This document shows, one piece after another, positions 1 to 60,825 of a stretch of DNA of 64,000 nt. Within the stretch, counting starts at the first letter, position 1. Every line of letters starts with the position of its first letter. The DNA lies in contig KN832892.1 of assembly GCA_000827325.1 (NCBI GenBank), forward strand, positions 186,001 to 250,000. Reading direction: 5' to 3'. This stretch comes from Oidiodendron maius Zn (lineage: Eukaryota; Ascomycota; Leotiomycetes; Myxotrichaceae). Both the position numbers and the translations under genes were made by a program. Under the pieces are notes generated by a model. The model was not told where the DNA came from. It made no database searches and saw only the letters and a list, made by a program, of their open reading frames with translations.

Positions 1-3000
1 GTAGTTATGGCAGCGATTGGGCCGATAACTACAACCGCGAGATACTTCAGTACGGCCCGTACCAGATCAATACTACGGACGATTTTTCGTTGTCGAATCG
101 TCTATCGTATGAGATGGACTTGCGTGGACCGAGGTATGTATGTATTTATCTAGTTGTGTAGTTGTATAGCAGTATAGCGCTATATATCCTTGTTAATACT
201 CTAATCGGAATGGAACTAACGTTCTTGGTCCAGTATGACGATCCGCACTGCATGCTCGTCGAGTCTAATTGGGTTGAATGAAGCATGCAGTGCCATGGCC
301 AAGGGCGACTGTACCTCAGCCATTGTGGGGGGCACGAGTATACTCATGGCTCCTGCCATGACTACTGCTCTGTCCGAACGGGGTACGCTTTCGCCCGATG
401 GTTCTTGCAAGAGCTTCTCCGCGGCAGCCAATGGCTATGCTCGTGGCGAGGCCATCGTCGCCATCTACCTCAAGCCGTTACGTGATGCTCTTCGCGATGG
501 CAACCCCATTAGAGCTGTCGTCACTGGCACGGCGGCCAATAGTGATGGCAAGACACATGGCTTCTCAGTCCCCAGTGCCTCCGCCCATGAGGCCCTCATC
601 CGCCACACATACCGCCTCGCAGGTATCACTGACGAGGACATATCCAAGACAGCCTTCTTCGAGTGCCATGGGACCGGAACGCCTGTCGGGGATCGTATAG
701 AGACTGAAGCGGTCGCCAACGTCTTCGGCCCCTTGGGTGGCATCCACATCGGGTCCATCAAGCCGAATCTGGGGCATTCTGAGGGCGCGTCCGGCTTAAC
801 GTCTCTGCTCAAAGTTGTTCTTGCACTCGAACATAAGACTCTCCCCCCGAATATCAAGTCCTTACCGTTGAATCCGAACATCCCCTTCGAGCGTGGGAGG
901 CTTACGCTTTTACAAGAAGCAGCACCATTGCCAGAAGGACGTTGCGAGCGAGCGAGTATCAATTCATTTGGAATTGGTGGCTCAAATGCCCATGCGATTA
1001 TAGAATCTGCAGCGAGCCTTGGTGTTTCTCGAATCAAACCAAAAAGAGCATCGCCCACTATCCCTCAGCTACTGGTCTACTCGGCCAACACAGCTTGGTC
1101 CTTGGAAGGAATGATCCAAAGATACCAGAGCTTCCTAGAAACCACCTCAGAACCTCTAGCCGATATAGCATACACCCTCGCTAATAGAAGGGAGCATCTC
1201 CCATACCGATCCTATGCCGTGCGCACCGGAGAATCGCCAGGTATTGCAGCTCCTTTGTCATCTTGGGAAACAGGCCAGGTACCCTCTCTAGTGATGATAT
1301 TCACAGGTCAAGGTGCACAGTGGCCTCGAATGGGAAGAGAGTTGCGTTCCAATCCAGTCTTCAGTAGTACCATAAAGTCACTTGATAATTATCTGCACAA
1401 CCTTGGGGCGGCCTGGAGCCTAGAGGAAGAGCTCTTCAAGCCAGCCAGGACAAGCCGAGTAAATGAAGCGGAGTTCTCCCAGCCTCTTTGTACAGCGCTC
1501 CAACTTGCCCTTGTCGATACGTTTGCTTCTATCGGAATCAAACCTGCAGCTGTAATTGGCCACTCTAGTGGTGAGATTGCCGCAGCGTACGCAGCGGGTG
1601 CTCTTACAATAGAAGAAGCTATGAACGTTGCCTTTCATCGTGGAGCAGTCTCTGCTCTACAAACGAAACGCGGGGCTATGGCTGCAGTAGGGCTGAGTTG
1701 GGAAGAAGCCAAAAAACATTTAATTCCTGGCGTGGTGATAGCTTGCGATAATTCCCATAAAGGGGTCACTATTTCTGGGGACGCAGATAAGCTGGAACTT
1801 GTTATGGCTGATATCAAGAATTCGTACCCAGACATACTCACGTCTATGTTGAAAGTTGATAGGGCTTATCATTCACACCATATGATGGAGGTTGGCAAAG
1901 AGTATTACTGTGCTATGGCTGGCTCAGGAGTTGTGGGTAAAACGCCTCAGGTACCCCTCTTCTCTACCGTGACGGGCGAGCTCTGGACAAATGGCCAATT
2001 AGGACCAAAATACTGGCAAGACAACCTAGAATTCCCAGTGCGTTTCAAAACAGCAGTTTGCAGTCTACTCAAATATGCAGCGACAAAGCATCCGGTTTTC
2101 CTCGAGGTAGGACCTCATCCCTCACTCACCGGTCTGGTCAGACAGATCTTGACGCACGAGTCAAAAACTGGACCTACTATAGTGCCTACTATCAAACGAC
2201 GGCAGAACGGTATGGAAGACTTTTTATCAGCAGTTGGAAAGCTATATACCCTTCACGTTGACGTCGACTTTAATGCTCTGATGCCAATTGGTTCGGGTTC
2301 CAGCGCCCCAGGATTACCCTGCTATCCGTGGGATCACCAAAAGATTCATTGGTATGAATCAAGAGTATCCAAAGACTGGCGACACCAAAAATACCCCTAC
2401 CACGATCTCTTAGGTAGAAAGGTACTAGAAAGTACTGACCTTGAGCCAGTATGGAGAAACATCCTTCATCTTGACAACGTATCTTGGGTAAGTGACCATA
2501 AGATAAACGATGATATCGTCTTCCCTTTTTCAGCATACGTAGCTATGGCCGCCGAGGGCATGCAACAAATATCTGGAATCCAGCTAGACAGCATCAAATT
2601 TCAGAAGACAGCTGTCAGCACTGCTCTATTGTTAAGTGAGGATACACCAACCGAGCTCGTGACAGCATTCCATCGTCAGCAGTTGACTAAGGAGATGGAT
2701 AGCGAGTGGTGGGAGTTCACCATATCATCACACAACGGAAATTTATGGACTAAACATTGCACAGGCGCAGTGCGAGCAGAGTCCAAAATGCCAAGTGAAG
2801 ATGCTGAATATCCGGAAGATCTGACGCGGAAGGTCTCTAGTCAAAAGTGGTACAAGGCTGTTAGCCGACGAGGCCTCAATTACGGTCCCCACTTTAGAAC
2901 CTTGGAACAAGTAATGTCGTCTACGATGGCGCCGCATCTGGCTACAGCTCGGGTCCGCAATAACTGCCATGGCGACGAAGCCGCCTACCACTTACATCCT

Positions 3001-6000
3001 GTCATTGTGGATTCTTTCTTCCAGCTTCTCAGCCTGACGACTAGAAGTGGCCTGGCGCATACTTATAGGCGGCTCGTCGCAACAAGCGTTGAGTCTCTGA
3101 CGATATCTCGTTGCTCTTCGGACTATGTCACACTCGCTACGTCGGCTGAGCTTGTGGGAGGTGGGAGCGGAGCTCTCGGCGAAGGCTCCTGCATTGCAGA
3201 CTCTGGAATTGTGTTACAGGCTTCGGGTGCTCGCATGACTCTCCTCGACGACGATGGAGCTGATGAGTCTAATAAACTTAGAGGAGGAGGAGCTCCCATA
3301 ACGGCTCGATCCGAATGGGTGCCCCACATCGATTTTGTGGATGTCAAAGCCCTCGTGGAACCACATCAAGCTGGCAGGCCATATGCTCCTGCTTTAGCAG
3401 AGCTCACGAGCTTGGCAATTTCTCTTTCCAAGCAATTATTTACTGGTATCACGGACGTCCAACTTCCTCATTTGAAGAAGTACAAAGCTTGGCTCGATCA
3501 ACAACAGGCTCTCCCAAATTTCGATACCTTGAAGCTAGCCGGCCGCATCAATTCTCTTGTCGGGCAACAAGCTAAAAGTCCTGCAGCACCCGTTGCTGCC
3601 GCCATCTCCAGAGTCTCGGCCAATATCGTGACTATTTTGTCTGGTGAAAAAGGAGCTTTTGAGATCTTGAATGCGGACGGTACTCTGAATAAAATCAATG
3701 CATTCATGAAAGAATCTTGCTCCTCTAGTTTATCTTCAAATTTCATTCGATCCTTCGCACTCAGCAACCCTTGTCTGCGGGTCCTCGAGTTAGGTGCTAC
3801 CTATGGCGCGGCGACAGAAGGAATCTTGAAGAATCTGAAACATCCCAATGGCCAACTCCTCTATTCACAATACGTTTGCGCCGATGTTTCGATGGGTATG
3901 GTCAATGTAGCAAAAGAGCGGTTCAAAGGCATTGCCAACCTAGAATTCGCTCTTCTAGATGTTAGTAAAGATCTGTCCACTCAAGGGTTCGACGATGATA
4001 ACAAGAAATTCGATCTCATCATTGCGACGGATGTCCTCCACGCCACGCCTAGACTGCAAACAAGCTTGCACAACGTGCATAAATTGTTGAGTCCTAATGG
4101 AAGACTGTTGATACAGGAACCGGTACCGGGGTCAGCATGGCGAAAGCAAGTCTTGGGCGTTTTACCTGGATGGTGGTGTGGTATTGAGGATGGCAATGAG
4201 AGGGAAGAGGAGCCGTACATCAGTCTAACGCGATGGAAAGAGGAACTGGTGGCAACTGGGTTTGAAAGCCCGGGCGCAGTAGAGCAAGAGAACTTTACTG
4301 TCGCAATAATTGCGAAACCAAGAGGAGACAAAGAAGCGACTTCGTCAAAACGGATTACATTGTTGTGCAGTAATATTTCCACACCAGATTCGCCGCTCGA
4401 GAAAGAACTAGAGGCACGAGGGTATTCCATATCTCGTTGCACGGTCGAGATGGTGTCTCCGCACGGAGACGACATAGTCGCACTTCTTGACCTGGATGAA
4501 AAGCCATTTTTCGAAAACATAAATGAGGCCACGTTTGAAAAACTCAAATCCTTTGTCGCCGATGCTCACAAATCTGAGTCTGGTATTCTTTGGGTCACAC
4601 GACCATCTCAGACGCTTTGCCCGGATCCCAGATACGCCCCAGTTATTGGACTATCTCGAACTCTCCGATCTGAGATAGGAATTGAATTTGCTGTTTGCGA
4701 GGCGGATGATTCCGACTCTGCAGCTGGATGTATGGCTGTCGCTAACGTGATCGGCGCATTCCAGAGAAGAGAAGAAAAAGATGGGCCTGGTTTAGAGTTT
4801 GAGTATGCTATCTCTAAAGGCAAGATTTTCACTCATCGTCTATTTCCTTTCTCGCTAGAAGACGAGCTTCATGTCGAGAAGTCTTTTGATCAAGCTGTTT
4901 TAAAGATCGAAAGGCCGGGACGGCTCGATAGTATACAGTGGGTTGGACAGCCGGCGGTGGCTCCACAGGGAGACGAGGTCGAAATAGAAGTACATGTAAC
5001 TGGGGCGAACTTTAGGGTAAGTCTCAAGTTTCTGGGCATTGAAAATAGTTAACCTTATCGAAATCAGGACATCCTAGTAGCGATGGGGAAAATTGAACTT
5101 CCCGAACGCACATTTGGGTACGAAGCAGCTGGCATAGTCCGACGCATTGGACCCAACGTGACAAATTTCTGTGCCGGCGATCGGGTCATATTTATGGGAG
5201 TGAAAACTTTCTCAACCGTGGTTATAGCCACCGAAAGCCTCTGTGAAATGCTCCCTCAGGATATGAGTTTTGCTGATGGAGCTGGGATTCCTTTTGCTTT
5301 TACGACAGCTATTTATTGCCTTATTACCATTGGAAATCTTGAGAAGCAACAGGTAGCATGCCCGATAATCTGCCAATTATGTAGTGATACTAATAAAGAT
5401 TCTAGTCTGTCCTCATACACAGCGGCTGTAACGCTATTGGTCTTGCCGCTATTCAGGTATCTCGCATGCTCGGTGCCGAGATCTATACCACTGTTAACAG
5501 TGAAGAGGAAGCTATACATCTAATAGAAAACTATAATGTTCCTCGGAGCAGAATTTTTCAGATATCTTCTTTTGCGGATGGCTTGATGCACGAAACGCAA
5601 AGGAAAGGTGTTGATATAGCTTTGAATTCCCTTTCGGGGGAGCTTTTGCATGCGACGTGGCGATGTGTTGCGAAATGGGGAACGATGATTGAGATTGCTA
5701 GTGGGGAGAGTGTGTCCAGGGGCGGAAAACTGGATATGGACATATTCTCAGATAATCGCAGCTATTGCTGTGTGGATATGGATCAGATCATCAGAGAGAG
5801 ACCAACCACTGTCAACCGGTAAGTCAAAGTTTGGTCTATACCCATTTACAAAACATCAGTTCGTTTAACCTGCCTTCATTTCTTTAGTTTACTTCGTCAG
5901 ATGATGGAGTATTTCCGCCAGGGGTACCTCTATCCCATCAAGCCTGCCCGTGTATCCAACGCGACGGAGATCCAGGAGGCATTCGAGTATATGCAGCAAG

Positions 6001-7241
6001 GGAATCATATCGGCAAGATCGTCCTCGAGCTTCGAGATAATATCACAAGCAAACTTCGGCTAGGAAAAGTCTCCCTCCCAAAGAAAATTTCCGCAGAACT
6101 TGACGCGTCCGCCTCATATTTGCTAGTAGGTGGCCTTGGGGGGATAGGCCGTTCAATCTCTCTCTGGATGGCCCAGCACGGTGCCAAGAACCTTACCTTC
6201 CTCACACGAAATGCCGGGAGCAGGTCGAACGACCAGGATTTTGTAAATGAACTTGAGAGTATGGGATGTAAAGCCGTGTTGGTTAAAGGGGACGTCACGG
6301 ATGTAATTGATGTTTCGCGGGCGGTGAATGCATCCGAGAGACTAGGCCCATTGAAAGGAATCATCCAGTTATCAATGGTCCTCCGCGATCAGGCTTTTGA
6401 GCGGATGACGTTCAAGGACTGGAGTTGCGTTATGGACCCCAAAGTGAAGGGGACATGGAATCTTCACAATGTTACTCTGAAAAGGAGCCTTGATCTAGAT
6501 TTCTTCTTCCTCTTTAGTTCCCTTTCCGGGACATTGGGACAAACTGGCCAGGCGAACTACGCTAGCGCAAACACTTTCCTCGACGCTTTTGTACTATACC
6601 GTACAGGTATGGGGCTTCCTTGTTCGGCGATAGCTCTCGGCGCTATGGAGGACGTGGGGTATTTGAGCGAGATTGAAAATGAGGCATTGCTGAAGAAGAT
6701 GCAAGGTTCAGGGTGGAGAGCGAACCAAGAAGCTGAGCTTCTTGAGGCGTTCAATGCTGCCATGATTGGGGAGAGACGACAAGAGCGGGAAAAGGAAGGC
6801 AGATTGGTGGAGCCGAATATGTTCGCTCTAGGTATTGAGCCCACTCAAACTCAGCTCGAAACGGATGTTCGGATGAGTGTGTACCGCAATAGTCGAAGGG
6901 GTGACAGTAGTGGTGGTGCTTCAAACGACGTGCTGCACTCTTTCCTCACCACAGCAAAGAAAGACCCCAATGTTCTCCAGTCTTCAGACGCGGTGGCGAT
7001 TGTCGCGAGCGAAATTGGGAAGGCGATACTGAGTTTGCTTTTGAGGCCTTGCGAAGGGGTGAAATTAGAGTTGGATACGAAGGCTGATGAATTGGGTCTA
7101 GACTCAATGGTAGCTGTCGAGATGCGTGCTTGGTGGAAACGTAACTTCGGCGGCGAGATCAATATTCTTGAAATTTTAAGTGCGGGAACGATAGGAGCGT
7201 TAGGAAAGAAGGCGATAGAAGGGTTGGAAAAAAGGATGTAG
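1..7241 (+). CDS. Highly reducing iterative type I polyketide synthase, 5' end outside window
   Basis: Exons 1-133, 234-5016, 5068-5352, 5406-5818 and 5888-7241, all GT-AG and in phase, give 2,321 residues; roughly 150 N-terminal residues are missing at the window edge. Domain order: KS (TACSSSL near residue 51, ECHGTGTP, KPNLGHSEG), AT (GHSSGE near 486), DH (DHK...FP and VDSFFQ), C-methyltransferase (~1210-1330), ER (~1600-1900), KR (VGGLGGIG; YASAN) and ACP (LGLDSM near 2274). There is no thioesterase, so a separate hydrolase or transferase would release the chain. Such enzymes build reduced, methylated polyketides iteratively in the cytosol. Odd points: Arg precedes TACSSSL where Asp is usual; the ER cofactor loop reads NAIGLA instead of GGVGxA; the methyltransferase glycine motif is GATYG; the DH motif has Asp in place of the central Gly. 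The family call is firm; the activity of DH, MT and ER is uncertain. Confidence 0.97.
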
Positions 7242-24116: not shown

Positions 24117-24345
24117 CAAATCCATTCAGAGTGTGCTTCCTCGAATCTCAATTATTGATTGTGCAAATCGGATAGATGGATGGCCTTGGTGAATCAGCAG
24201 CTTCCATTTAAGCCCTTGCATTCGGCGTAACATCGACCCATCTTGGTGTGTTTGAATTATCATTTAAGTCAGGAAAGCTGTGCTGTATGCGAGGACGAGA
24301 GAGACGTCCCGCAAATACATCAGACAAGTCATCGATCTTGCGACT

Positions 24346-32875: not shown

Positions 32876-33586
32876 TTAATAGCCATTGGCCGCATCAAGA
32901 ATGACCTTAGCCACTTTGTCTGCCTGACTAATCAAACCCGCGTGACTAGCACCCTTCAGCAAAGTAGTCTTGGCCTTCATGCGCTTTGCAAACCAGGATT
33001 GCAGCGCAGGTGGAATCATCTGATCCTCGGCGGCAACGATATAATGGATGTTTTTGACCTGCTTCCATGCAGGTGGTCCGGAAGGATAGGTGAAACGACC
33101 ACCGTCTAGCGGTCCCTGAGTAGCCGCTAAGACCCGAGCGTCACGAGGGTTGACATCAGGGGCAAAATATTTGAGATAATCGGGTTGCGTCAGAAGGAGG
33201 CGGCCATCAGGTCCATTAGGGACGAATACTTGATTCGACGGAAGAGCAGTGTAGTTCTGCTCGAGGAAAGTCACCGTCTCGCCCTCGTCAGGGGCGAATC
33301 CCATGACATAAACTAGGGCCTTGATATTCAGGGCATCGGTAACAGCATTCGTAATGGCAAAGCCGCCAAAAGAATGACCGGCCACAACAATAGGCACGTC
33401 GCTCTCGGCATTGAGTGCCGCCAGCTGGTTCTTTACCACGGCGACATCATTCGGGATACTAGTCAGTGGCTGCTGGACTGCTGTGACGTTGTGTCCAGCA
33501 GCCTGAAGGGTTGGAATGACCTTAGACCACGAGGAGCCGTCGGCAAGGGCGCCATGGACAAGAAGAATGCGAGCTGGGAGCATCAT
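32876..33586 (-). CDS. Alpha/beta hydrolase (AB hydrolase_6, EstA-like)
   Basis: Single exon; the ATG at 33586 gives 236 residues beginning MMLPARILLVHGALADGSSW. The frame is open to 33691 but the extra 35 residues look like 5' leader. Motifs: HGALADGSSW (oxyanion region), nucleophile GHSFGG, YVMGFAPDEGET, acid region VAAEDQMIPP and histidine GASHAGLIS. This is the compact lid-poor group of 230-250-residue hydrolases common in bacteria and fungi, related to salicylate- and pheophorbide-type esterases. No signal peptide. The substrate is unknown. Confidence 0.88.
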   Translation of the reverse strand: MMLPARILLVHGALADGSSWSKVIPTLQAAGHNVTAVQQPLTSIPNDVAVVKNQLAALNAESDVPIVVAGHSFGGFAITNAVTDALNIKALVYVMGFAPDEGETVTFLEQNYTALPSNQVFVPNGPDGRLLLTQPDYLKYFAPDVNPRDARVLAATQGPLDGGRFTYPSGPPAWKQVKNIHYIVAAEDQMIPPALQSWFAKRMKAKTTLLKGASHAGLISQADKVAKVILDAANGY

Positions 33587-35165: not shown

Positions 35166-36224
35166 TTAGTGCCAATACTTGCCTGTGATGGGCCTGACCA
35201 GCTCCCAGGCATTGTCTAGCGAGGTTATGACCTCGTCAGGCAGCGACCCTCTTTCCAAGTCGAGTATGTTCTGCTCCACGTGTTTAGGGCTGCTCGCCCC
35301 TATTATTACAGCATCTGGATATTCAGAGCCAAGTTTGCTGTGATTGGTCATCCATCGAAGAGCTATATCAGCCACACGAAGCCCATGTTTCTCTGCAGCA
35401 GGCCGTATGACCTCCAACGCCTTGAAATACGCGTCGTTCCAATAGCGTGCTCGATAGCGCTTCCCTTGCCGTGATTCTGGGTCGAACCGAGACCCTCTTT
35501 CCGCGAATGTGCTTTTCACCATGTTTCCAGTTAAAAAGCCACCAGCAAGGGGATTATACGCGTAGAAACCCATGCCATAATGCCTCAAGCAGGGAAATAG
35601 CTCCGCTTCAACCGCTCTGTGTAACACGTTGTAGACGCCCTGATATACCACTGGTTTGATCCAGTTATTGGCGTCACAGATCTCGCATATCTGCGCTACC
35701 TCCCATGCCATATAGTTCGAAATACCGAAGCGATCAAACAATCCCTCCTTGTGAAGCTCGTCGACTGCCCTTAGAGTATCAACGTAGGGTGTCGATCGGT
35801 CAGGCCCATGCAAATACCACATTGCAATTTTTTCGCCCTGCAGAGCTTTCAAGGATCGTTTGAGGTTTTCACGTAAGTGTTCCGGCCTGTGAGTCCATTG
35901 GTCTTTATCCGCCTCCACCGGTAGAACTATTGTCGGGTAGCATTTCGTATCCATAACCAAGCCGCGGTCCTGCCATTTAAGGTTGCCAAGGTACTCCTCA
36001 GAGGTGCCAGAGCCATAAAACCGCGCAGTATCGATTTCATTGTAGCCGTGAGACTGGAATGTGTCCAGGAGTTCCTTGGCGACATTGAGATCGCTTATAT
36101 GTATTAGTCAAAAACATCTAGCAGCCTGGTAGGGGACGACGACATACGGAACTCGAGACTCTTCACTACCATTGCCAATAGTCATAGCTCCTAAGACTAT
36201 GTTGACAGCCGATTTTGTCTCCAT
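35166..36224 (-). CDS. Aldo-keto reductase, AKR7/aflatoxin-aldehyde-reductase type
   Basis: Exons 36224-36148 and 36093-35166 (54-bp intron) give 334 residues. The start METKSAVNIVLGAMTIG begins directly at the first barrel strand, as in AKR7 enzymes. Catalytic residues are visible: Asp and Tyr in YNEIDTARFYGSG, Lys in VMDTKCYP, and His in MWYLHGPD. Later GISNYMAWEVAQI, YQGVYNVLHR and FYAYNPLAGGFLTG are typical. The C-terminal cofactor segment is AVIIGASSPKHVEQN. These NADPH-dependent cytosolic enzymes reduce aldehydes and dialdehydes and are common tailoring or detoxification enzymes in mycotoxin loci. Nothing is missing. Confidence 0.92.
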
Positions 36225-38452: not shown

Positions 38453-39679
38453 CTAGGCTATGCTGGACAAGGCAGGGATGGTGAAAGCTGGGTCGGCGGC
38501 GGCAAAGGCTTCGGCCCGGTTGGCGTTTGGTGGGTAGATTAAAACGCCATTAATCGTTTGCTTGACCGACTTAGCTGCAGAGCCAGAAAGCATGACTTTG
38601 CGGTCCCAGCCTTCGGTTACAACGGCGCCCCACGGGCCCAAATCAAGGCAAGTTCCAAGGGCGGGTTGCGAATAGGGCTGGGTCTCAATATTGAGTAGAT
38701 CTGCCGCTGCGTTGTGCCCCGCTGAGCGGCCGAGACGCATTGCGTGTTGACACGACATCATGGAATAGTTATTGTCATCATCCGTCGCCGCAGACGCTGT
38801 GTCACCTGCTGCGAATATGCCTTTGGTTGCTGTCACGCGCAAATCACTATCGACGTGCAGGCGGCCGTATTTGTCCTTCTTGCCATTTATCTGTTTGGTC
38901 AGCGGACTCGCCTCTGGACCGGCTGTCCAGACGACTGTGAGGGCCTCGATACGTTCGCCGCGGGTGGTAATGACACCGCCAGCGTCGACGGACGCAACCG
39001 CGGCTCCGAGCTTCAACTCTACGCCCAGCTCTGTGAGGGCCTCAAGAATCACTGGGCGCGGACCCGGCCCAAGACCAGGCCCGATCTCAACTCCACTTCC
39101 CACAATCACGACACGCACATCAGCACCCTCGGCGAGAATCGAGCGTAAGCGCGCGGGTAGCTCGGTCCCTATTTCGATGCCTGTGAACCCCCCGCCCACG
39201 ACCACAACGGTATTGCGAGCCGGACTGGGGGGCAGGGACGCCAGGCTACTCAAGTGCGTTTCGAACTCCGCCGCCTCCTCCAACTGGTCGATGCTGAATG
39301 TATGGTCGCGTAGGCCGGGGATATCTGGACGCACCAAGCGGCTTCCGGCAGCCACGATCAGCCGGTCGTAGGACAGCGTCGACCGCGCACCAGACGGATC
39401 AACAATATGCACCTCACGCTGTTCCGAGCTGATGGTATCGACCGTGCCTTTAACAAATTGGACGCCAGTCACGTGAAAAAGCTCACTCAGCGGGGCGCTC
39501 ATTGTTGCTGCATCCGCCTCATAGAGCCTCGGTCGCACAACCAGTCTCGGTTCAGGTGCGATAACTATTACTTCGATTCCTGCTGCCTCCCCTCCGTTAA
39601 GGTCGATCAAGCGCATCGCGGCAATCGCGCTCCACATGCCGGCAAAGCCCGCGCCGACTACCACTATTCTCTGTGACAT
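38453..39679 (-). CDS. FAD-dependent pyridine-nucleotide oxidoreductase, NDH-2-like
   Basis: Single exon, 408 residues from the ATG at 39679; an in-frame ATG at 39733 precedes it but the FAD motif starts right after MSQ. N-terminal FAD Rossmann motif VVVGAGFAGMWSA, ATG-like motif LIVAAGSRLVRP, second Rossmann fold VVVVGGGFTGIEIGTEL for NAD(P)H, and the FAD-closing motif GIFAAGDTA. The order is that of type II NADH dehydrogenases and related quinone reductases. No membrane segment or presequence is seen. By eye it is much richer in G and C, especially at third positions, than its neighbours, and has no introns. This suggests acquisition from a bacterium or a GC-rich fungus. Confidence 0.9.
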   Translation of the reverse strand: MSQRIVVVGAGFAGMWSAIAAMRLIDLNGGEAAGIEVIVIAPEPRLVVRPRLYEADAATMSAPLSELFHVTGVQFVKGTVDTISSEQREVHIVDPSGARSTLSYDRLIVAAGSRLVRPDIPGLRDHTFSIDQLEEAAEFETHLSSLASLPPSPARNTVVVVGGGFTGIEIGTELPARLRSILAEGADVRVVIVGSGVEIGPGLGPGPRPVILEALTELGVELKLGAAVASVDAGGVITTRGERIEALTVVWTAGPEASPLTKQINGKKDKYGRLHVDSDLRVTATKGIFAAGDTASAATDDDNNYSMMSCQHAMRLGRSAGHNAAADLLNIETQPYSQPALGTCLDLGPWGAVVTEGWDRKVMLSGSAAKSVKQTINGVLIYPPNANRAEAFAAADPAFTIPALSSIA

Positions 39680-40592
39680 ATTGAAATCTTCTTGTTTAAT
39701 CCTCTTTAAAATGAATGGGATGGAATGAGGCAAGGCTGGCTATCGCTATACCACGGCGAGCTGATGGCGTCTTTATAGACGGTTTTCAACAACCTGATCG
39801 ATTGTTGGGCCGGGTACCGGGTATCCCTTCAATACCTGACTCCCTTGCCACTTTCAGTGGGCAAGGTAAATATCCAATAGCCTTACTGCAACTCCCGCAG
39901 TCAGGTGGAGGGGGGTATACGGGTATGCGGGTATACCACGTGGTAAGGTACACTGATTACCGATGCACAGTCCGGCGTTCGTTTTTCTCCATGAGTACCC
40001 ATTTCGATTAAGCGAGGCCCCGAGAACCGTCACTGCCAGAGATTTAAGTGCACGAATTTACAAACTGTTCTGAGGATGCTAAACTGCGGGTACAGGAATC
40101 TTAATAAGCATATAATCTTTGCTCGGGCTTTTACTTTGACGCTGGTGTTTGAGGGATGGTGGCGTGCAAAAAGGGTTCCGAGTTCGCACCCTGCTAATAG
40201 ATTCAAAATTTAGAGATCGAGTTGGAACCAAAATTGTAAAGCACATGATTTATGTTTCTATTTCCTCCAAGCACTTAGGACTAGGTACCAATTTGTTGTC
40301 TAGATGATCCTCAATATTGAACCCTTGTACTCGATAAGCACTTTAAATGTGAAATACAACCAATAATTTATTCACAGCGCCTCCCGAGAGCCTGGCACAC
40401 TCGTTCTGCGGGCGGCAATGTGGGACGCAATGCGGGACGCAATGTGGGACAGTATTCCAGCAATAGCCTATCGGCATCCTTACAACAGATCGTATATCAT
40501 TATATCATCTTTGCGAATGGCTCACAGTTTCTTATCTGTTTTACTAACACCTATTTCATCTCATTCGGGTTTCCCATCAATTATTTTATGTT
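39680..40592. other. Intergenic, with a small tandem repeat
   Basis: This divergent promoter region of the FAD oxidoreductase and the next hydrolase contains three copies of a 12-bp unit at 40415-40450. Nothing else was recognised. Confidence 0.5.
40415..40450. repeat. Three tandem copies of GCAATGYGGGAC
   Basis: The 12-bp unit occurs three times head to tail with a single C/T difference, about 145-180 bp upstream of the hydrolase start. Confidence 0.85.
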
Positions 40593-41555
40593 ATGCCAAA
40601 TTCCGAGCCACTATTATTGGATATGAATTCATTCACGTTAACACTCTCCACCGGCTCGATACTCTCAGGTCTCTCCTGCATCCCTTCTCATATACCGGCA
40701 CAACTTTCTCAACCCCTCATCGTTGGTATCCATGGAGGCACTTATAGCTCGCGATATTTTCATCCAACGCCAAGTACATCTGCGGCCTCCATATCAACCG
40801 TCCTCGGTATTCCATTCATAGCCATTGATCGTGCAGGGTACAACAAAAGCACGAAGCTGCCGGTTTGTCCTGCAGGTTCTACATTTCTCCAGGAAGAAGG
40901 GAAGCACTTGCACAAGTACATTCTCCCTGCAATATGGCAAGAGTTCGGCAAATCGTCCGGCAGCACCAGCATTGTACTTCTCACACACTCTCTGGGCTCC
41001 GGCAGTGCCATCATCGCTGCATCTCTCCTTGCCCAAGAGGAAGAGACGCTATACCCTCTGAGCGGCTTGATAATTTCTGGCTGGGGTACTACAACCTCTA
41101 TTCCTCGAACAGAAGCGGAAAGGCTTCTATCTTCACATACAACTTCAGACCGCCTACATTTCCCTCTCGCAATGAAGGATCTCCTTATGTTCGGCCACCG
41201 GGAATCCAAATGTGTCGACCCCAGAATGTATGATCTTACAGAGTCGCTAGACAATGGTATGTCGTATGGAGAATTTCAAGATGTGAACATGACTTGGCTC
41301 ATGTACTGGAAGAAATACGCGGCCACGGTTCAGGTGCCTGTTATGTATTGCTTAGGGGAAAGAGACTCAATTTGGGAGGCGACAAATAGCAATATAAGAA
41401 ACTTTTCAGAAGCCTTCAAAGCCTCACCCAGGGTGGAGAGGGTTTTGATTCTAGGAGCACCGCATTGTATAGAGCTGAGCTTATGGTCAAAGAGTTGGTA
41501 TTTACGGGCCTTCGGGTTTGCTTGTGGGTGTGCTGTAAGTGACGCGCAACAATAA
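40593..41555 (+). CDS. Alpha/beta hydrolase
   Basis: Single exon of 320 residues; a second in-frame ATG at 40623 (MNSFTLTLSTGSILSG) may be the real start. Motifs: GIHGGTYSSRYF (oxyanion), AIDRAGYNKST, nucleophile THSLGS, acid region YCLGERDSIWE and histidine GAPHCIELS. The family of such enzymes in ascomycetes is broad and mostly uncharacterised. No signal peptide or membrane segment. It is one of several unrelated hydrolases in the window, so a role in releasing or trimming a polyketide is possible but not shown. Confidence 0.85.
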   Translation: MPNSEPLLLDMNSFTLTLSTGSILSGLSCIPSHIPAQLSQPLIVGIHGGTYSSRYFHPTPSTSAASISTVLGIPFIAIDRAGYNKSTKLPVCPAGSTFLQEEGKHLHKYILPAIWQEFGKSSGSTSIVLLTHSLGSGSAIIAASLLAQEEETLYPLSGLIISGWGTTTSIPRTEAERLLSSHTTSDRLHFPLAMKDLLMFGHRESKCVDPRMYDLTESLDNGMSYGEFQDVNMTWLMYWKKYAATVQVPVMYCLGERDSIWEATNSNIRNFSEAFKASPRVERVLILGAPHCIELSLWSKSWYLRAFGFACGCAVSDAQQ

Positions 41556-42705: not shown

Positions 42706-43600
42706 ATGACTACCTCACTTAGCGTGATTTTGCGAAACTCGCAGCGGGCGAGGACGGTGGGAATCCTACAGCCTCTGGTAATCTTAAATTCACCCGAACT
42801 ATAATCAGTCAGATGGATACTGATATTTCAGCCTTCAATCCTACCGCTAGCATACTCTCTGGTCAAGCAGAGACCCCTGTCAAGTTCGACAGCGTATGGT
42901 CAGAATCGAATGTCAACAGAAGCCGCCGTCCCGATTGTACCACAGACTCAATTGCCTCGAATGCCCCTCAGGCGACCACTGCAAAGGCAATATTCTCTGC
43001 TTCCCAGCCAAGATGGACAAAAAGGGGTCACAGAATACGCGTTGTAAGCCCCCTTGCTTCTCACAACACTGCTCGTGGCACTGTTCTAAAATCACAGAAC
43101 CTCAATGGACAAACTCGCCAACTGGGCACGCCAAGGCTCACTCTGGCCCGTAACTTTTGGCCTCGCATGCTGTGGAATAGAAATGATCCAAACATCGATG
43201 CCACGCTACGACCAAGATCGGCTAGGGGTCATATTCCGAGCTTCGCCGCGCCAGGCTGATGTCATGATTGTAGCAGGGACGTTGACGAACAAAATGGCGC
43301 CGGCACTGAGACTGGTATATGATCAAATGCCAGACCCGAAGTGGGTTATCAGCATGGGAAGCTGTGCAAATGGGGGCGGGTATTACCATTACAGCTATTC
43401 AGTTGTGCGCGGTTGTGATAGGATCGTGCCAGTCGATATCTATGTGCCTGGCTGTAAGTTGAGAGAAAGGAGAGCTGGTTTATGAACTAAGGCTGATAAA
43501 AGCAGGCCCACCAACCGCGGAGGCATTGTTGTACGGTATCTTCAGGCTGCAGAGAAAAATGCGGCACTCGAAAACAACGAGGATGTGGTATAGAAAGTAG
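42706..43600 (+). CDS. Mitochondrial complex I PSST subunit (NDUFS7/NuoB), divergent copy, candidate self-resistance gene
   Basis: Exons 42706-42777, 42832-43043, 43098-43453 and 43506-43600 (introns 54, 54 and 52 bp) keep phase and give 244 residues. Exon 1 encodes an Arg-rich amphipathic presequence ([19 protein letters not shown]), so the protein is imported into mitochondria. The mature part starts near [20 protein letters not shown]. All four ligands of cluster N2 are present: two Cys in [10 protein letters not shown], one in [10 protein letters not shown], one in [26 protein letters not shown] and [18 protein letters not shown] are as in all eukaryotes, and the end RMWYRK is typical. 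It passes electrons from N2 to ubiquinone. The segment after the double Cys reads GIEMIQ instead of the usual fungal AVEMMH. Setting and divergence suggest a resistant second copy. Confidence 0.95.
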
Positions 43601-43821: not shown

Positions 43822-45447
43822 TCATTCCCCGTCTATCCTTCGCATTAATGGCCACACCTCGACAAACGCTTTACAGATGCCCAACACAAGTCTGTTACAT
43901 TTCCTTCCGTCTATAGCTTCCATGGGTTTCGCTGTAGATGCTTGCAATACTCGTTGTACGAGAGCCGTAAAAGAGGTGCAGCACGTGACGTGTGAGTATC
44001 TTGACATAACTTCCACCGAACTGTATGGCAATCGAGACTGCGGTGCATCAATGTAGAGTTTCATCCTTGCGAAAAGTTAGAAAAACGGCTAAATCAAGAT
44101 CGATATGACAGGCTCTCGAAGATTGAACAGGCCACACTCACGTGTTGATGAGGATATGTGCCTGGAAAAGTATCTCATTTGTCCTACCGTTAGCTTTCAT
44201 CATGTCCTGCTTGGACGGTGGGAGATAGAGAAACCAGTTCGTCCATCTTATATTCGCCCTGCCCACAATCGAGTCGAGGGTAACTCCATATTCTAAATTG
44301 GCTTCCATCGTAGCACCAATTATATGGACAGCATCTATAAGATATGTGAAAGGTGAGAAAACAATTTCATCTTCAGCGAACTCTCTGCTTTCATATTCGT
44401 CTAGAGTCATCGGAACAGGAATTTTCTAGGTGACTCCCAGTTAGCGCAGGCTCCAGTCCGAAGAATGTTTCATACCCCTCTGGAGTATTCCCTCTCCTCA
44501 CACGGCAGGTCTGTATTTGTGACTGCAGTCCAACACGTGAAATATGATTCGCGTCTGATACCAGCAAATGTGCCATCAACAACAAATAAACCCCACCAGG
44601 TCCTCCGCCAGCATTCCTCCAAAACGGGATTGCCCTCTCCATTCTCCGTTGCAAATTCTCTAGAATTCATCTTGATCTCCAACGCCATAGAGATCGCTCG
44701 ATCTAATGTCTTCCTAGCTTGATCAGACTTGCCGCAGCAAAGGGTCGTAATTGCCAGTAGAAGCAGAGCCTGCACGGAAAATCCATTAGGTGGTAAAATT
44801 CCAAACTCCATGTCGAGTTCCGCGTGCAGTCCATGTGATACACTATTTAGAGCATAGATAGAACTAATGAATTTGAGAATAAGAACAAGGTGCATCAATG
44901 ACGCATAGTTGGTCTGAAGTCGAGAAATTAAGTGGCGTCTAGGCAAAATATAGGGGTGCGCATCATTGAAGTACTGATAGTAAACAGTCAAGATCTTGTC
45001 CATGCCATTACTGGCGTAATTTTGACTTGGAGTGAGCCTATGAGAAGTTTCCGAAGCTTCGAGGCTGTCAACGCTTCCAGTGGAGGAAGATCTCAATGCT
45101 GATGTACTCGGTACCCTTGGTTGAACCTGTCGCCAGAATTTTGGTCAGTTGAGTTGTATATGATGAATTGCGGGCTTTCTTCGAGGCAGGCTTTGTCTGG
45201 TTCGTCTCCCTCTGCATTTGGCGTAGGAGCAACGGTTGTTATCATGCCAGAATCGTGAACATGATGGAGCATTTGTATCGCATTTCACATGTCGTGTTCC
45301 GCATGCTGCACAAGCCAAAGAAATTCGACTTCCATTGCCGGAGATTGAAACGAATATGGTCTCATCAGGCTTGTTTGGAAGGTGCATGGGCATGATGTTT
45401 ATTCCTAGCTACTGTAGCAGATCAAGGTTGAAGTCGAAGTTTGCGTC
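43822..45447 (-). pseudogene. Decayed paralogue of the regulator at 49793-47840
   Basis: Homology to the regulator at 49793 runs the whole length, but damage is visible. At the N-terminus the homologous stretch DANFDFNLDLLQ is followed by TAG (45411-45409). In the zinc cluster the fifth Cys is Phe (CSRFWHDNNRC against CSRCQPDNRAC). After CRGRRTRQSLPRRKP no GT donor is found and the frame ends. The next parts are recognisable: from VQPRVPSTSA to EREYSRG (ends 44476), KIPVPMTLDEYESREF to HILIN (44425 to about 44151), and KLYIDAPQSRLPYSSVE onward. The last part lacks about 45 residues between AKPMEAIDG and the segment RLVLGICKAFVEVWPL. With this many lesions a working regulator is unlikely. Confidence 0.8.
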
Positions 45448-46065
45448 GACGCCTATTTAAAATGTATCCTCAAAATAGCCACAATGCGTGTATAAAGATA
45501 GAGATAGGTAACTGTGATAAATGATGGACAGACTTCGGGACAGAGCAAACCAAGGCAGGACTTGGGGACTTCGAACCCTTAAGATCGTCGGGTAGAGTAC
45601 AGAATCTGCGTCTCACCTATAAGAGACTCAAAGATCGAGTGAGCGCATGCTGGATGTCCTGATAGAGCCATAATGCTGAGGGGAATGACTTCTGTGGTGT
45701 TGCTGCACTGGAAAGAATCATGTGCTCTGCGGAAGCCGTGCGGAAGCCGGCCGGAAACCCAGCAGCAGGCGGAGGGTATCGAATAGGCTACTGACAGTAG
45801 CGTCCAAACAATTACGGGTATTCGGGAATTGAAACAGGATCGCGACAAAAAGGATACGGCCATGTATCAGCCACACACTCGAATTAAGAATGACGAATAT
45901 TGCTTGTTTGTAAGGTGCAAATCTTCCTAGTCTTTAGCACTTTAACCATTCACGTCACGTCTCTGGACGTCAATTCCCACCAGATATTATTATATTCCGC
46001 TAAGAGCTTTCGTTCCTTCGTACTGCGATCTTCGTTCTACCGCCACCTTTTCATAGTGCTTCCAG
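45448..46065. other. Intergenic, promoter side of the fatty-acid hydroxylase
   Basis: No supported gene. A pyrimidine-rich stretch precedes the ATG at 46066. Confidence 0.5.
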
Positions 46066-47298
46066 ATGCCTTCTCAAACATTGCCCACGATACCCCAACG
46101 AGCCATCGCCGAGAGCAACACGACAGAGAAGTGCTACATTACGATGGGAGCAAAGGTTTACGATATGACAGACTTCCTGGATTCGCATCCTGGCGGCGGA
46201 GATCTTATTCTTGAGTATGGTGGAAAGGACGTGGAGGGGATTCTGCAGGATAATGGCTCGCATGCTCACTCCGAAGCTGCCTACGAGATCTTGAAGGACG
46301 CTCTCATCGGGCTTGTTGTTACTGATGCAGTTATGGACCCTTTGCCGAGTAGCATGTATCCAGCACGCATTCTTCCTCTACAACCAACCGAGAAGGGAGT
46401 GCAGCAGAATGGTCCAGCCAACGACGTTATCTCCAATGCGTACTTGAGGACAGGTGTGGCGACAGCTGAGGACTTCTCGAAGGACACAGACCCTGACGAC
46501 GACTACAGGACGCATAAGTTTCTCGATTTGAACAAGCCTTTATTCCTTCAGATTTTGTTCGGGGGGTTTAGTAAAGAATTCTATCTCGAGCAAGTACACC
46601 GTCCGCGTCACTACAAGGGAGGAGAATCAGCACCCATTTTTGGCAACTTCCTCGAACCGCTCACCAAGACGCCTTGGTGGATGATTCCATTGCTCTGGGG
46701 CCCTCCTGTCGCATACGGTACATTCATCTCAAGAGACGGTTGTGCTAGCTGGGTTCAGGTGGCGGTATATTGGGGTTTTGGTCTCTTCATGTGGTCCTTG
46801 GTCGAATATGGCCTTCACCGTTGCCTGTTCCATTTGGACTAGTAAGTTTGGATCCGTAGCTGCTCATAATTAAGTCACCACTAACGTAAGAAAAGCCACC
46901 TCGCAGACAACCCTGTTGCAATTACCGCACATTTCCTGCTCCATGGGGTCCACCACTATCTTCCTATGGATAAATACCGACTTGTTATGCCTCCTACGAT
47001 GTTTATTATCCTTGCATTCCCATTCTGGATGCTAGCACACGCCATTTTCTACTGGAATTGGCACGTAGCCACTGCTGTGTTCTGCGGAGGTGTCTTTGGA
47101 TACATTGGTTACGACTTAACACACTACTTCATACATCACTGCAAACTCCCATCTTTCTACCAGGATCAGAAGAAATACCATCTCCAGCACCACTTCATAG
47201 ATTATGAGAATGGGTTTGGTATAACCAGCCGCTTTTGGGACAGAGCTTTTGGCACGGAACTAACGTTATCACCCTCCAAGGTCTTCAAGTCTATCTGA
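46066..47298 (+). CDS. SCS7: Fatty-acid / ceramide 2-hydroxylase (cytochrome b5 fusion)
   Basis: Exons 46066-46841 and 46896-47298 (54-bp intron) give 392 residues. The N-terminal cytochrome b5 domain has MGAKVYDMTDFLDSHPGGGD with the first haem His, and the second His in GSHAHSEAA. The C-terminal di-iron hydroxylase has the histidine boxes EYGLHRCLFHLD, HGVHHYLPMD, THYFIHHC and KYHLQHHF. Hydrophobic segments around IPLLWGPPVAYG, VYWGFGLFMWSL, MFIILAFPFWMLA and TAVFCGGVFGYIG span the ER membrane. The enzyme puts a 2-hydroxyl on the fatty acyl chain of ceramide. Ascomycetes normally carry one such housekeeping gene. Whether this is it or an extra copy belonging to the locus cannot be told from the window. 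Confidence 0.94.
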
Positions 47299-47839: not shown

Positions 47840-49793
47840 TCAAACTGACCACGAGCTCGTGTACACACCTTCACGGGTCAGCACCTGGCCTACAGGTGTC
47901 TCGTTCCCTTTAGCATGTGGAATGTTCAGTAACTCCCGGGCAATAGTCTTCATCTCCAAAATCGTTTTCCTGCCCAGTGGCCAAATTTCCGTAAACGCCC
48001 TCAAAGCCCCAATACCGAGACGGATGCGTTCTCGAGCCTCAATGACTTCCTTAGGCTCCAGCACCAATCTACAGGCAGATATTTGACCCATGATAGCCAT
48101 GGCGAGAGCACATATTATAAGCGGCGTGTGCTTCATGATAGGGGTCGGGAGGGTCATCATGCCGAGTAGTGATTCGAGGGACTCGAGTGCCTTGTTGGTG
48201 TGAAGTGCACGGGCCGTTTGTCTCATCCCCATCATCTGTTCTGCTAGAGGTGCAGGTGTGCATTTTGACGTCCCTTCCACGCTGCTGTACGCGAGACGTG
48301 ACCTCGGGCGATGTAGGTAGAGTCCGAGTCTGTCCCAAATCAGCATTGGAATTTACAAGCGAACTGCGCGGGCTCTATATTTGTGTGAAAATTATCTTGC
48401 ATTGTGGAAGCCTGTCGTTAAGAAAGAAACAGTTTGGCTTCGAAAGGAGGCACCTACAAGTTGATGAGCATGTGCGCCTGAAAAATAACTTCATCCATGC
48501 TTCGATTCTCGTTGATCATCTGCTTCTTACACTCTGGCAGATGCACGATCCAACTGACTAGTTTTGCATCTGCAGGAGTTGCCACAGGATCATAAGCCTC
48601 TCCGGTATCACTGCTGGCGGCTAGCACAGCGCCAGCGATTCGTGCCCCATCAATTAGGTATGCGAATGAAGAGAAGGTGATTTCCTCATCTGCAAACTCT
48701 CGTGTTTCATATTCCTCCAACAACTTTGGGGTGGGTATTGTCTGCAGGTCTGAATTAGCCTGTCTTATAAGAGTTGCTCCGGATTTCGACATACCCCTTG
48801 GGCATATTCTCGCTCCTCGCATGGCAGATCAACATCAGTGTTGATATTCAACAGTTTAAATGACTTCTCATGCCTGATACCGGCGAATGTGCCGTCGATA
48901 ATGAAGAGCAGCCACCACGTCCTCCTCCAACTCTCTTCCATAACATCATTTCCCTCTCCGCTCTCATATGCAAATAACCTAGACTGCATTTTGATCTCTA
49001 ACGCCATAGTAATGGCCGTATCAAGAAGCACCCGAGCCTCTCCGAAGTTGTTACAGCAGTGTGTCGCTAGTGCAAAAAGCATGAGAGCTTGCACGGAGAA
49101 GCCAGTCATCGAAAGGTTGCCTGTCACCAGTTCGTTACTTATTCTTTCTTTCAACCCCTCCGATGGAATGTGTGGCAAGTACAGCGATCCAATATATTCC
49201 ATCACGAGCATCACGTGCTGCAGGGACGCCGAGTTCGATTGTAGTCGTGCCATTAGATGTACCTGAGGCAGAAGAATGGGATGGGCATCGTGAAAGTTCG
49301 TGTAGTACGAATCGCGGAGCTGTCGTGACAAGTGGTCACCGTCATCATGAGCCGAACTATGGCTACCAGAGGTGTCAGAAATCTCGGGCGTTGTGCCGGC
49401 AGAAAGAGACATCGGCGCCGTATTGCTTGCAGATTGGAATTGAAGATGATCACGAACGTCCGGTCTTCTGGGCATATCTGCGTCTAAGGCAGCTTGCCTC
49501 CGCAGCAACTTCGATCGCTGCCCACCTCGCTTTGATTTAGTATAAGAGCAAGCCCGATTGTCCGGCTGACATCTTGAGCAGGATGGGGTGCTCGCGTCGC
49601 ACCTGATGTGGCGTGTCCTGCATGGTATGCAGGCCAGGGAGACTCGGAGCCCAGCTTTCCGATCGACTTCTGCGACTTCTGTCACTCCAAGCTGGTCTAA
49701 GGGCATATACGTCTCGTCTTGCTGAAAGGTGAGAAGGTCGACATCAAAGTAGAAGTCCGCATCCAAGTCTAGCTGTGACCTGTCCATACTCAT
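47840..49793 (-). CDS. Zn2Cys6 fungal transcription factor, intact member of a paralogous pair
   Basis: Exons 49793-48795, 48741-48458 and 48329-47840 (introns 53 and 128 bp) give 590 residues. ATG codons at 49793 and 49787 are both possible. The zinc cluster CIPCRTRHIRC-DASTPSCSRC-QPDNRAC has all six Cys. The basic stretch SKRGGQRSKLLRR follows, then the xylanolytic-activator-like domain (YYTNFHDAHPILLPQVHL, EESWRRTWWLLFIIDGTFAG). It is nuclear. It shares its whole architecture with the pseudogene at 43822-45447, and the fatty-acid hydroxylase lies between the two. A local duplication, or insertion of hydroxylase and NDUFS7 copy beside such a pair, would explain the layout. It is the best candidate for the regulator of the NDUFS7 side. 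Confidence 0.92.
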
Positions 49794-50579
49794 GTGATGA
49801 AGTAGTGGTCGGCGTGCAGTGATATGGAGCTCCCTTGAAGCGGCAGGGTAGGAGGTCAATCTGAGTTGATTGTGTTGTAGATAGTAAAGTGCACAGAATC
49901 CGTGGCCGTGCGAGACGGCAGGTTCCGTTGTCGGGGCGGGTGGCGAAAATGCAGTTAAGCTCTCTCGGCCTTCGAACGAATCAAGTCCTACATCACGACT
50001 CGTTCAACTAATTGTCCAATGTGTGACTGGTTGTCTTCCACAGCAACGAAGCGAATAAGATGAGTCCAGGAAGGCATGTCGGCATGCATACAGGCGTCCA
50101 GATATCCGATGCGTTTCTCCTGTTGCATGGATCGGAGGATTATAAGGTTTGGTATCGGCAAGACGACTGCTGACAGAAGCATGTAAACTCGGGGCGAAAA
50201 CGGTTCGTTGGCCTGCGTTGTTTGGGTGTGGCGAAAAGTGCTATGTGTCTTACATTGTCCTACACCGTGCAACTATCAACGCAATCGTGGCGGGACTTAT
50301 GTAACAACCCGACGGTAAGAGGCAGCAAAGAGGGGCACACAAAATCCGTGGGAGATATCATCGCATACGGCTACTTATGGGAATGGACAGTGCGTGCCAT
50401 ACACTGATATTTGAAATTTCTAAAATATTAATCCAGCCAAATTTCTTAGGAACACAGACAAGACGAGTCCATCTGCCATGGCGAGAACTCTATGAATGTA
50501 CTCAAAGCGCATGCCGTCCTCAACTAACAAACATTGGACCTCGTCCGCCCCAGATACTGCCAACAAAGGCTACACCCTT
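49794..50579. other. Intergenic, nothing recognised
   Basis: Promoter of the regulator and gene-free DNA. Confidence 0.5.
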
Positions 50580-59666: not shown

Positions 59667-60825
59667 TCACTTGGTCTGATCGGCAGACTTCTTCTTCTTA
59701 CTCGCCGCCTGTATAAGCCTATCTGACAGGTCTCCAATTGGCAAAGTGAACGGGAAATCAAGCGTTAATAGCATCTGTGCGAAGAGAATATACCAGCCAG
59801 CCATACAAAAAGTAAATGCGCAAGCTCCCGCAGCCTGTCGTTTGTTGTCAGTAAATCTATCTAAGAAATAGTTGAGAAGAAACGAGATCTAAACTTGTAC
59901 TGGGGGTGGTGTATCATACCGTTTCAATCCTTGCACCGAGAGCAGTCTTGCCTTGAGCCAGAACCCAGTACGCAGCTGCCAGAAGGGCAAATGTGGTAGT
60001 CAAAAGCAAAAATATGAAGACAAAGACAATATTAGTACGGAGGGAGCAGACAAAGAACATTGCAGACGCGATTGACATAAAGAGAAGGAAGAACGCTAAA
60101 TTGTACGTGTCAGCATGAAGGTACATTGGACATGAAAGATCCTCACCAAAACTAGCCAGAAACTCAGCCTCACCAACTGCCGGATTGGATGCGCCGTTGG
60201 TGTATGCCCCTACTGCGTTATAAGATGGTTGAAGGGTTGCCGCCAAAGATAGCCAGAACGCTCCTATTTGCCGCAGATGATTTGTCAAGTTGATGCTCTT
60301 GGGTAGTGCTTTTGCCAAGGGAAAGGGACTTACCGTAAGTGCCAAATACGACAAAAGGGAAGGTATTGCCAAGAATCCATTCCATTACGCTTCCTATGAT
60401 TTGGAGCATGCCGCCGCAGAAGTAGAATACACCACTTAATTTGTGAGCATTAATATCATATGGCCACCGGCATTTTCCTCTTACATGGTAGCAGCACCTC
60501 CTCCGCCAGCGCCCTGCCATCCCATCAACGAACAGGCAAGAGGACTTCCTGCTAATAGGAAGCCAATCATGATTCTAACACATACAGACTTAGTACCATC
60601 ATGGTGGCAGCGTATGAATACTATGAGTATGGAGACTTACAGAGGTGTTGGGTTGCCGAACGTCTTCCTCAAATCTCCTTTAACCGAGTTTTGGGGAGTT
60701 AAATACATCTTCTCGAAAACATCTAGAGGGATAGCAACGCTATGGGCAGTTGCATGACGTTGAAGCTGCTCTTGCTGATAAGCTTCTACATCGGTGCCGT
60801 CCTTACTAGAGTAAACGTTCGCCAT
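59667..60825 (-). CDS. GPR1/FUN34/YaaH family membrane protein (acetate transporter-like)
   Basis: Exons 60825-60641, 60574-60485, 60434-60334, 60263-60147, 60095-59920 and 59834-59667 (introns 66, 50, 70, 51 and 85 bp) give 278 residues. The family signature is present: FGNPTPL, then GFLLAGSPLACSLMGWQGAG, FYFCGGMLQIIGSVMEWILG, NTFPFVVFGTYGAFWLSL and CSLRTNIVFV. Six hydrophobic helices are visible; the N-terminus is hydrophilic and the C-terminus Lys-rich (ASKKKKSADQTK). Homologues such as Ady2 and AcpA move acetate with protons across the plasma membrane. The short intron at 60096-60146 is a multiple of three, so retention would not break the frame; family alignment favours splicing it. Confidence 0.92.

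Follow-up and report, generated by a model that had tools for sequence, protein, structure and literature searches.

Does an extra complex I gene of Oidiodendron maius Zn protect the fungus against an inhibitor made at the same locus, or does it supply an alternative form of the subunit? The question is raised by PSST2, an alternative NDUFS7/PSST gene located at 42706..43600 on the forward strand of a 64,000-nucleotide stretch of contig KN832892.1 (positions 186,001 to 250,000; assembly GCA_000827325.1), which is referred to as the window and to which all coordinates without a prefix relate. The original prediction, made from the letters of the window, was that the gene is the self-resistance copy of a metabolite cluster. 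Duplicated resistant targets are carried in fungal clusters for IMPDH (mycophenolic acid), SDH (atpenin, harzianopyridone) and F1-ATPase beta (citreoviridin), and complex I is the target in none of the 13 such clusters listed in the available text of that source (PMC10320164). PSST2 resembles these cluster-borne genes in being an additional, diverged copy of a target essential to respiration or metabolism, and differs from them in that no cluster was found around it and in its membership of a paralogue group with a wide distribution.

Identity of the PSST2 gene

In a four-exon model (exons 42706-42777, 42832-43043, 43098-43453 and 43506-43600), PSST2 encodes 244 amino acids and is interrupted by GT..AG introns of 54, 54 and 52 bases. 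The Oxidored_q6 domain (PF01058) was recognised with 84.3 bits at a curated cut-off of 27, which identifies the product as the PSST/NDUFS7 subunit of complex I. Cysteines occupy all four N2 positions, C85, C86, C150 and C180 in Yarrowia numbering, which we take to be the ligands of cluster N2, in agreement with the original prediction. NDUFS7 carries the four cysteine ligands of this cluster (PMC9503403), and the residue numbering was checked on W77, M90, M91, I106, F107 and R108 of a table in the same source. Together with the core and the N2 cysteines, W77, M90, I106, F107 and R108 are common to PSST2 and housekeeping PSST/NUKM/NDUFS7 proteins (Yarrowia NUKM, 6gcs_K; Chaetomium-type, 7zm7_K).

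The public model of the gene (OIDMADRAFT_137110; P0005) starts at 42961, and its 177 residues are identical to the last 177 of the four-exon reading. The closest homologue, V500_10808 of Pseudogymnoascus sp. VKM F-4518 (P0006; 90% identity), has its annotated start at the same methionine. Because of these two starts, the first 67 residues, encoded by exon 1 and the beginning of exon 2, are uncertain, and so is the exact presequence. Of the complete four-exon gene with a mitochondrial presequence that had been described, the intact frame and the GT..AG introns stand, and the presequence is uncertain in its exact form. P0006 also has G87, I88, T93, M95 and K142 in common with PSST2, but keeps M91 and Q133 and has N92.

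PSST genes in the O. maius genome

A PF01058 profile search of the O. maius genome returned three places, and a protein search gave the same three: C2:2788426 (2.79 Mb), a housekeeping-type PSST gene that adjoins a HECT ubiquitin ligase gene; C2:2368039 (2.37 Mb), designated paralogue B; and PSST2 in the window. NDUFS2, the partner of PSST at the quinone site, was found at one place. Among the matches listed in the protein searches, no O. maius protein corresponding to paralogue B was present. PSST2 is thus one of three NDUFS7 genes and, as had been proposed, an extra copy, namely a divergent duplicate distinct from the housekeeping gene; the objection that it might be the sole NDUFS7 gene, foreseen with the original prediction, does not hold. 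One mark of a self-resistance gene is a diverged duplicate of an essential target that exists alongside the housekeeping gene, and it is found here with 18 differences in the 142 residues of the core.

Across this core, 125 residues are identical between PSST2 and B, 124 between PSST2 and the housekeeping protein and 123 between B and the housekeeping protein, so that of the 142 residues PSST2 differs at 17 from B and at 18 from the housekeeping protein (12-13% protein change). Fourfold-degenerate third positions were changed at 39 of 56 sites (PSST2/B), 41 of 55 (PSST2/housekeeping) and 41 of 54 (B/housekeeping), which places silent sites near saturation in all three pairs. The three genes have therefore long been separate and conserved, and the few residue changes set against nearly saturated silent sites show that PSST2 is held by purifying selection; both divergent paralogues, PSST2 and B, are under such selection. 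In the gene models made here, an intron at the YAL/T position is common to PSST2 and the housekeeping gene, the housekeeping gene has two 3' introns that PSST2 and B lack, and a single 3' intron is peculiar to PSST2.

Changes in the quinone and inhibitor pocket

The codons for residues 87-95 lie at 43174..43200 on the forward strand and read GIEMIQTSM in PSST2 against AVEMMHLST in the housekeeping protein. The 18 core differences between the two include A87G, V88I, M91I, H92Q, L93T, T95M, Q133L and R142K. Six of the 18 fall within segment 87-95 at the N2/ubiquinone site (hypergeometric P 1.2e-4, for a segment picked after the data had been seen), compared with four of the 19 differences between paralogue B and the housekeeping core (P 0.019). 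B keeps M91 and H92. Met91 of Yarrowia faces the middle of the ubiquinone headgroup, and Met59 and Met60 of ovine NDUFS7, which align with Yarrowia Met90 and Met91, help to form the rotenone pocket (PMC9503403). Variants of Yarrowia Met91 (mouse Met70) were reported to be resistant to DQA and rotenone and to have a raised KM for Q1 and Q2, with Vmax hardly affected (PMC7567858, citing Fendel 2008). From their adjacency to Met90 and Met91, residues 87, 88, 92, 93 and 95 would also lie close to a bound inhibitor.

Isoleucine at position 91 was present in four of 250 PSST proteins: PSST2 itself (P0005), a metagenome protein (P0162), Aspergillus avenaceus P0206 and Purpureocillium takamizusanense P0208. 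When all 250 proteins were retained, I91 occurred in 4/109 proteins with M95 and in 0/141 without it; M91 was found in 141/141 proteins without M95 and kept in 105/109 with it, P0006 included. The first two protein searches gave a full core in 145 of 151 proteins, and after exclusion of the PSST2 protein itself and P0006, M91 and H92 were invariant in all 143 others. After the third search, full-core proteins without M95 had M91 and H92 throughout (136/136 each), and those with M95 had M91 in 92/94 and H92 in 83/94 cases; this count excludes five animal or oomycete proteins (P0001-P0004 and P0007), P0163 and the PSST2 protein itself. The number of M95 proteins is no estimate of their frequency, since many were recruited by a query carrying the PSST2 motif. 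In the 80-row tree described below, the four rows with M91I imply three or more changes, and every one of them lies within the group that contains PSST2.

The comparisons support a concentration of PSST2 changes at what would be the quinone and inhibitor site, M91I included, and O. maius PSST2 is among the most altered copies in the pocket segment. Altered drug-binding residues, a further mark of self-resistance genes, are represented by M91I, a change at a position with resistant variants, of which isoleucine is perhaps not one. Since Met91 variants of Yarrowia are resistant, M91I may lower inhibitor sensitivity, with the same proviso that isoleucine was perhaps not among the variants tested. 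As B and 105/109 M95 proteins keep M91, this strongest change is no common feature of the paralogue group. PSST2 and other paralogues are also altered outside the pocket, for example at positions 123, 131, 134, 142, 167, 198 and 200, and these changes, together with the longer branches of the paralogues, indicate that faster evolution accounts for part of the residue pattern. The emphasis of the original prediction on the inhibitor pocket was borne out by the clustering of changes there; the residue pattern itself, which the prediction did not contain, is the stronger evidence, and the cluster is the weaker part.

PSST2-type paralogues in the Pezizomycotina

A second type of PSST, recognisable by T95M and in most cases by A87G, occurs in Penicillium, Aspergillus, Fusarium, Colletotrichum, Metarhizium, Hypoxylon, Sporothrix, Coniochaeta, Aureobasidium and others. 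Among the matches listed, both types were present in four or more species apart from O. maius, including Thermomyces lanuginosus, Xylariales sp. AK1849, Coniochaeta pulveracea and Aureobasidium pullulans. PSST2 is like Penicillium fimorum P0167, Aspergillus arachidicola P0243, Thermomyces lanuginosus P0102 and Aureobasidium P0079 in having M95 and, usually, G87 (A87 is kept in Aureobasidium); unlike these copies, it keeps L123 and C167 and adds M91I/H92Q.

A PSST tree was calculated from 80 hand-chosen rows (82 picked, two without a recognised core dropped). PSST2, B, P0006, P0162, P0188, the second Thermomyces copy and other M95 copies formed a group of 50 rows (support 97/97, with a bootstrap not fully settled), with longer branches than the housekeeping copies. 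The housekeeping PSST of O. maius falls outside this group, nearest to Ciborinia, so that the tree of fungal NDUFS7 proteins proposed with the original prediction sets PSST2 apart from the housekeeping copy. In a 46-row tree calculated without ten pocket positions, the group dissolved (a single clade was not rejected; p-AU 0.52), and B, P0188 and the second Thermomyces copy returned among the housekeeping rows; the grouping of PSST2 with other second copies leans on these ten positions. As judged from these sequences, PSST2 belongs to a patchy, widespread paralogue group of the Pezizomycotina and is not private to its locus.

In Thermomyces lanuginosus, the two PSST genes (P0102 and P0147; VTN49DRAFT_2906 and _2908) lie two locus tags apart, and the pocket is altered in one of them. 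The second copy carries A87G and T95M, and its presequence is identical to that of its own housekeeping copy at 65 of 82 positions, compared with 30/78 and 42/81 between the housekeeping presequence and those of two other species, which suggests that the gene was duplicated recently and acquired A87G and T95M anew, or that gene conversion took place. The second PSST type of Aureobasidium, a dothideomycete, is represented by P0079, P0086, P0119, P0126, P0132 and P0141. Five Aureobasidium second copies fall among the Aspergillus and Penicillium copies in the 80-row tree, and this nested position suggests transfer or loss.

The wide distribution of the group would suit a physiological isoform that tunes quinone affinity or the back-reaction to low oxygen, ROS control, temperature or developmental stage and has no link to an inhibitor. 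The residues altered outside the pocket agree with such a role, and paralogue gain, transfer and loss are described for the alternative oxidase of Aspergillaceae (PMC10744626). Taken alone, this explanation gives no reason to expect that Met91, a residue tied to inhibitor resistance, should change repeatedly, and the patchy presence of the paralogues would be more in keeping with a contingent need than with a general one; the explanation is regarded as doubtful. Among the papers listed in a literature search that covered few subscription journals, none was seen that treats PSST paralogues in fungi or a self-resistance role of NDUFS7. Six respiratory terms were all absent from the main text of the FRIGG paper (PMC6517689), and the available text of a paper on gliotoxin and mitochondria deals with complex I subunits other than NDUFS7 (PMC12505978). 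The available text of a paper on hypoxia in A. oryzae treats paralogues of alternative oxidase and sugar-metabolism genes and does not mention NDUFS7, NUKM or 20 kDa (PMC13208471).

Surroundings of PSST2

The neighbours were scanned as chosen open frames rather than full gene models, and small genes can be missed in this way. At the left edge of the window lies a highly reducing PKS (1..7238, forward strand), whose first ketosynthase hit starts at C23:185631, left of the window, and whose last open frame ends 35 kb from PSST2. Between the PKS and PSST2 there are a GH71 glycosidase, a DDE transposase piece, a SnoaL-like frame, a PepX-type hydrolase and a likely Zn2Cys6 regulator with a Pfam match just under the cut-off (the last three between the transposase piece and 24268), followed by an alpha/beta hydrolase at 24268, a carboxylesterase and an isochorismatase-like frame between 24268 and 32879, a further alpha/beta hydrolase at 32879, an aldo/keto reductase (35169..36107, reverse strand), a pyridine nucleotide-disulphide oxidoreductase (38456..39739, reverse strand) and a probable alpha/beta hydrolase (40548..41552, forward strand; Pfam matches just under curated cut-offs).

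To the right of PSST2 lies a decayed Zn2Cys6 regulator (44473..45456, reverse strand), which is 44% identical to the intact regulator whose main exon is at 48768..50003 (reverse strand); two stops interrupt its frame within the aligned part, and one of its zinc-ligand cysteines is replaced. A duplicate of ceramide/fatty-acid 2-hydroxylase (cytochrome b5 and fatty-acid hydroxylase domains; OIDMADRAFT_137013; 46066..47295, forward strand) lies 2.5 kb from PSST2, flanked by the two sibling regulators, and is the second housekeeping-type duplicate of this neighbourhood; its other copy, at C4:2699859, is 57-69% identical. A carboxylesterase at 54997 and a Gpr1/Fun34-type membrane protein at 59917 follow, and a P450 at 62043 marks the right edge of the window. 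The regulators, hydrolases, reductases, highly reducing PKS and P450 named in the original prediction were thus broadly confirmed, with the PKS and the P450 at opposite edges.

The oxidoreductase at 38456..39739 is weakly like bacterial type II NADH dehydrogenases. Its best PDB match is a bacterial FAD-dependent pyridine nucleotide-disulfide oxidoreductase, which we take to be a type II NADH dehydrogenase. AQxAxQ is the quinone motif of the type II family. A role of the window protein as an NADH dehydrogenase bypassing complex I was rejected, as it scored below all 24 NCBIfam cut-offs shown and the AQxAxQ motif was not seen in its sequence.

Left of the window are an NRPS-like open frame (C23:167079-170606; L015:1079-4606; condensation match under cut-off), an aminotransferase and an MFS transporter. 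Their position near the PKS would fit a cluster centred on the PKS rather than on PSST2, and the stretch from the NRPS-like frame to the PKS (to 7238 in the window) is likely to be a biosynthetic cluster separate from PSST2. The PKS is the gene with the ketosynthase nearest to PSST2, at 42-43 kb from the ketosynthase hit and 35 kb from the end of the PKS frame. About 8% of the genome lies within 43 kb of a ketosynthase (51 loci in 45.9 Mb, from 98 matches merged by eye). The PKS was judged not to be in one unit with PSST2.

Around paralogue B, nine of 15 scanned open frames had a family and six had none; these neighbours are mostly housekeeping genes (WKF, PhyH, three RRM, RabGAP, TPR with a match under cut-off, a DNA polymerase subunit and FUSC_2). 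The FUSC_2 frame, of the 'fusaric acid resistance protein-like' kind (L013:1922-2620), lies about 20 kb from B. No ketosynthase or condensation-domain match was found on contig C2, which holds B. Open frames of the window of at least 50 amino acids matched only PSST genes (E 1e-4) in a comparison with three regions: some 70 kb surrounding B, some 30 kb surrounding the housekeeping gene, and 40 kb of sequence that flanks the window. A cluster common to the PSST2 and B loci was rejected, as the window frames match only PSST genes around B. A chimeric query of pieces of four PSST2 neighbours, with the regulators left out, gave no named hit from Pseudogymnoascus VKM F-4518 in the best 120 of 1037 matches, among which the PSST of this strain itself was present; this result is weak, the strain contig being 13.7 kb long and many rows nameless.

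That PSST2 confers self-resistance to a product of its own locus, a complex I inhibitor from a cluster at 42-50 kb to which the PKS and P450 of the window might belong, is considered unlikely. The divergent duplicate with its pocket changes is what such a gene would look like, and it has sibling Zn2Cys6 regulators within 8 kb, one of them intact, the fatty-acid hydroxylase as a second housekeeping-type duplicate, the PKS end at 35 kb and the NRPS-like frame further left. Against this, the chosen open frames at 42-50 kb revealed no enzyme that would form a scaffold, the proximity to a ketosynthase is that of about 8% of the genome, and GH71 and transposase pieces separate PSST2 from the PKS. 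B, moreover, lies among mostly housekeeping genes on a contig lacking ketosynthase and condensation-domain matches, and the four neighbours had no named VKM F-4518 hit in the best 120 of 1037 matches (weak). PSST2 was accordingly not found to be located inside a biosynthetic gene cluster. The predicted metabolite unit at 42-50 kb with the PKS in the window was supported neither by a scaffold enzyme nor by the distance, and the assignment of PSST2 to a metabolite-type locus runs against the surroundings of B and the widespread paralogue group; the cluster reading of the locus is possible but unsupported.

A redundant or decaying duplicate under relaxed constraint, as the longer branches and the adjoining decayed regulator might suggest, is improbable given the intact frame, the conserved cysteines, the excess of changes at fourfold sites (39/56 and 41/55) over those in the protein (17 and 18 of 142 residues) and the 90% identical homologue retained in another genus (P0006).

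PSST2 as a proposed alternative PSST isoform

The reading preferred here, with a probability of about 0.5, is that PSST2 is an alternative, inhibitor-tolerant PSST isoform in general. It is favoured by the three PF01058 places compared with one for NDUFS2, by the kept N2 cysteines and by silent sites near saturation. Also in its favour are the six of 18 core differences in segment 87-95, the restriction of M91I to M95 proteins, its at least three changes on the tree, the resistance of Met91 variants in Yarrowia, and the A87G and T95M of the second Thermomyces copy. PSST2 would keep the parts for electron transfer to ubiquinone, with a remodelled headgroup pocket, and, when expressed, would be imported and assembled in place of the housekeeping PSST in new complex I. 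Complex I containing PSST2 may then respond less to Q-site inhibitors, its affinity for quinone being somewhat reduced, and the inhibitor that it would withstand could be either made or met by the fungus.

An extension of this isoform reading is offered tentatively, namely that the PSST2 type may be a patchy inhibitor-resistance isoform throughout the Pezizomycotina, with independent duplications converging on T95M, usually on A87G and in a few lineages on M91I. PSST2 provides a natural, selectively maintained variant in which the ubiquinone-headgroup methionine is replaced and with which it can be tested how the complex I pocket discriminates between quinone and inhibitors. Its sequence also provides a tag by which fungi that produce or tolerate such inhibitors can be sought. 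If the convergent resistance isoform is real, carriers of PSST2 would mark undiscovered fungal complex I inhibitors or ecological pressure from them.
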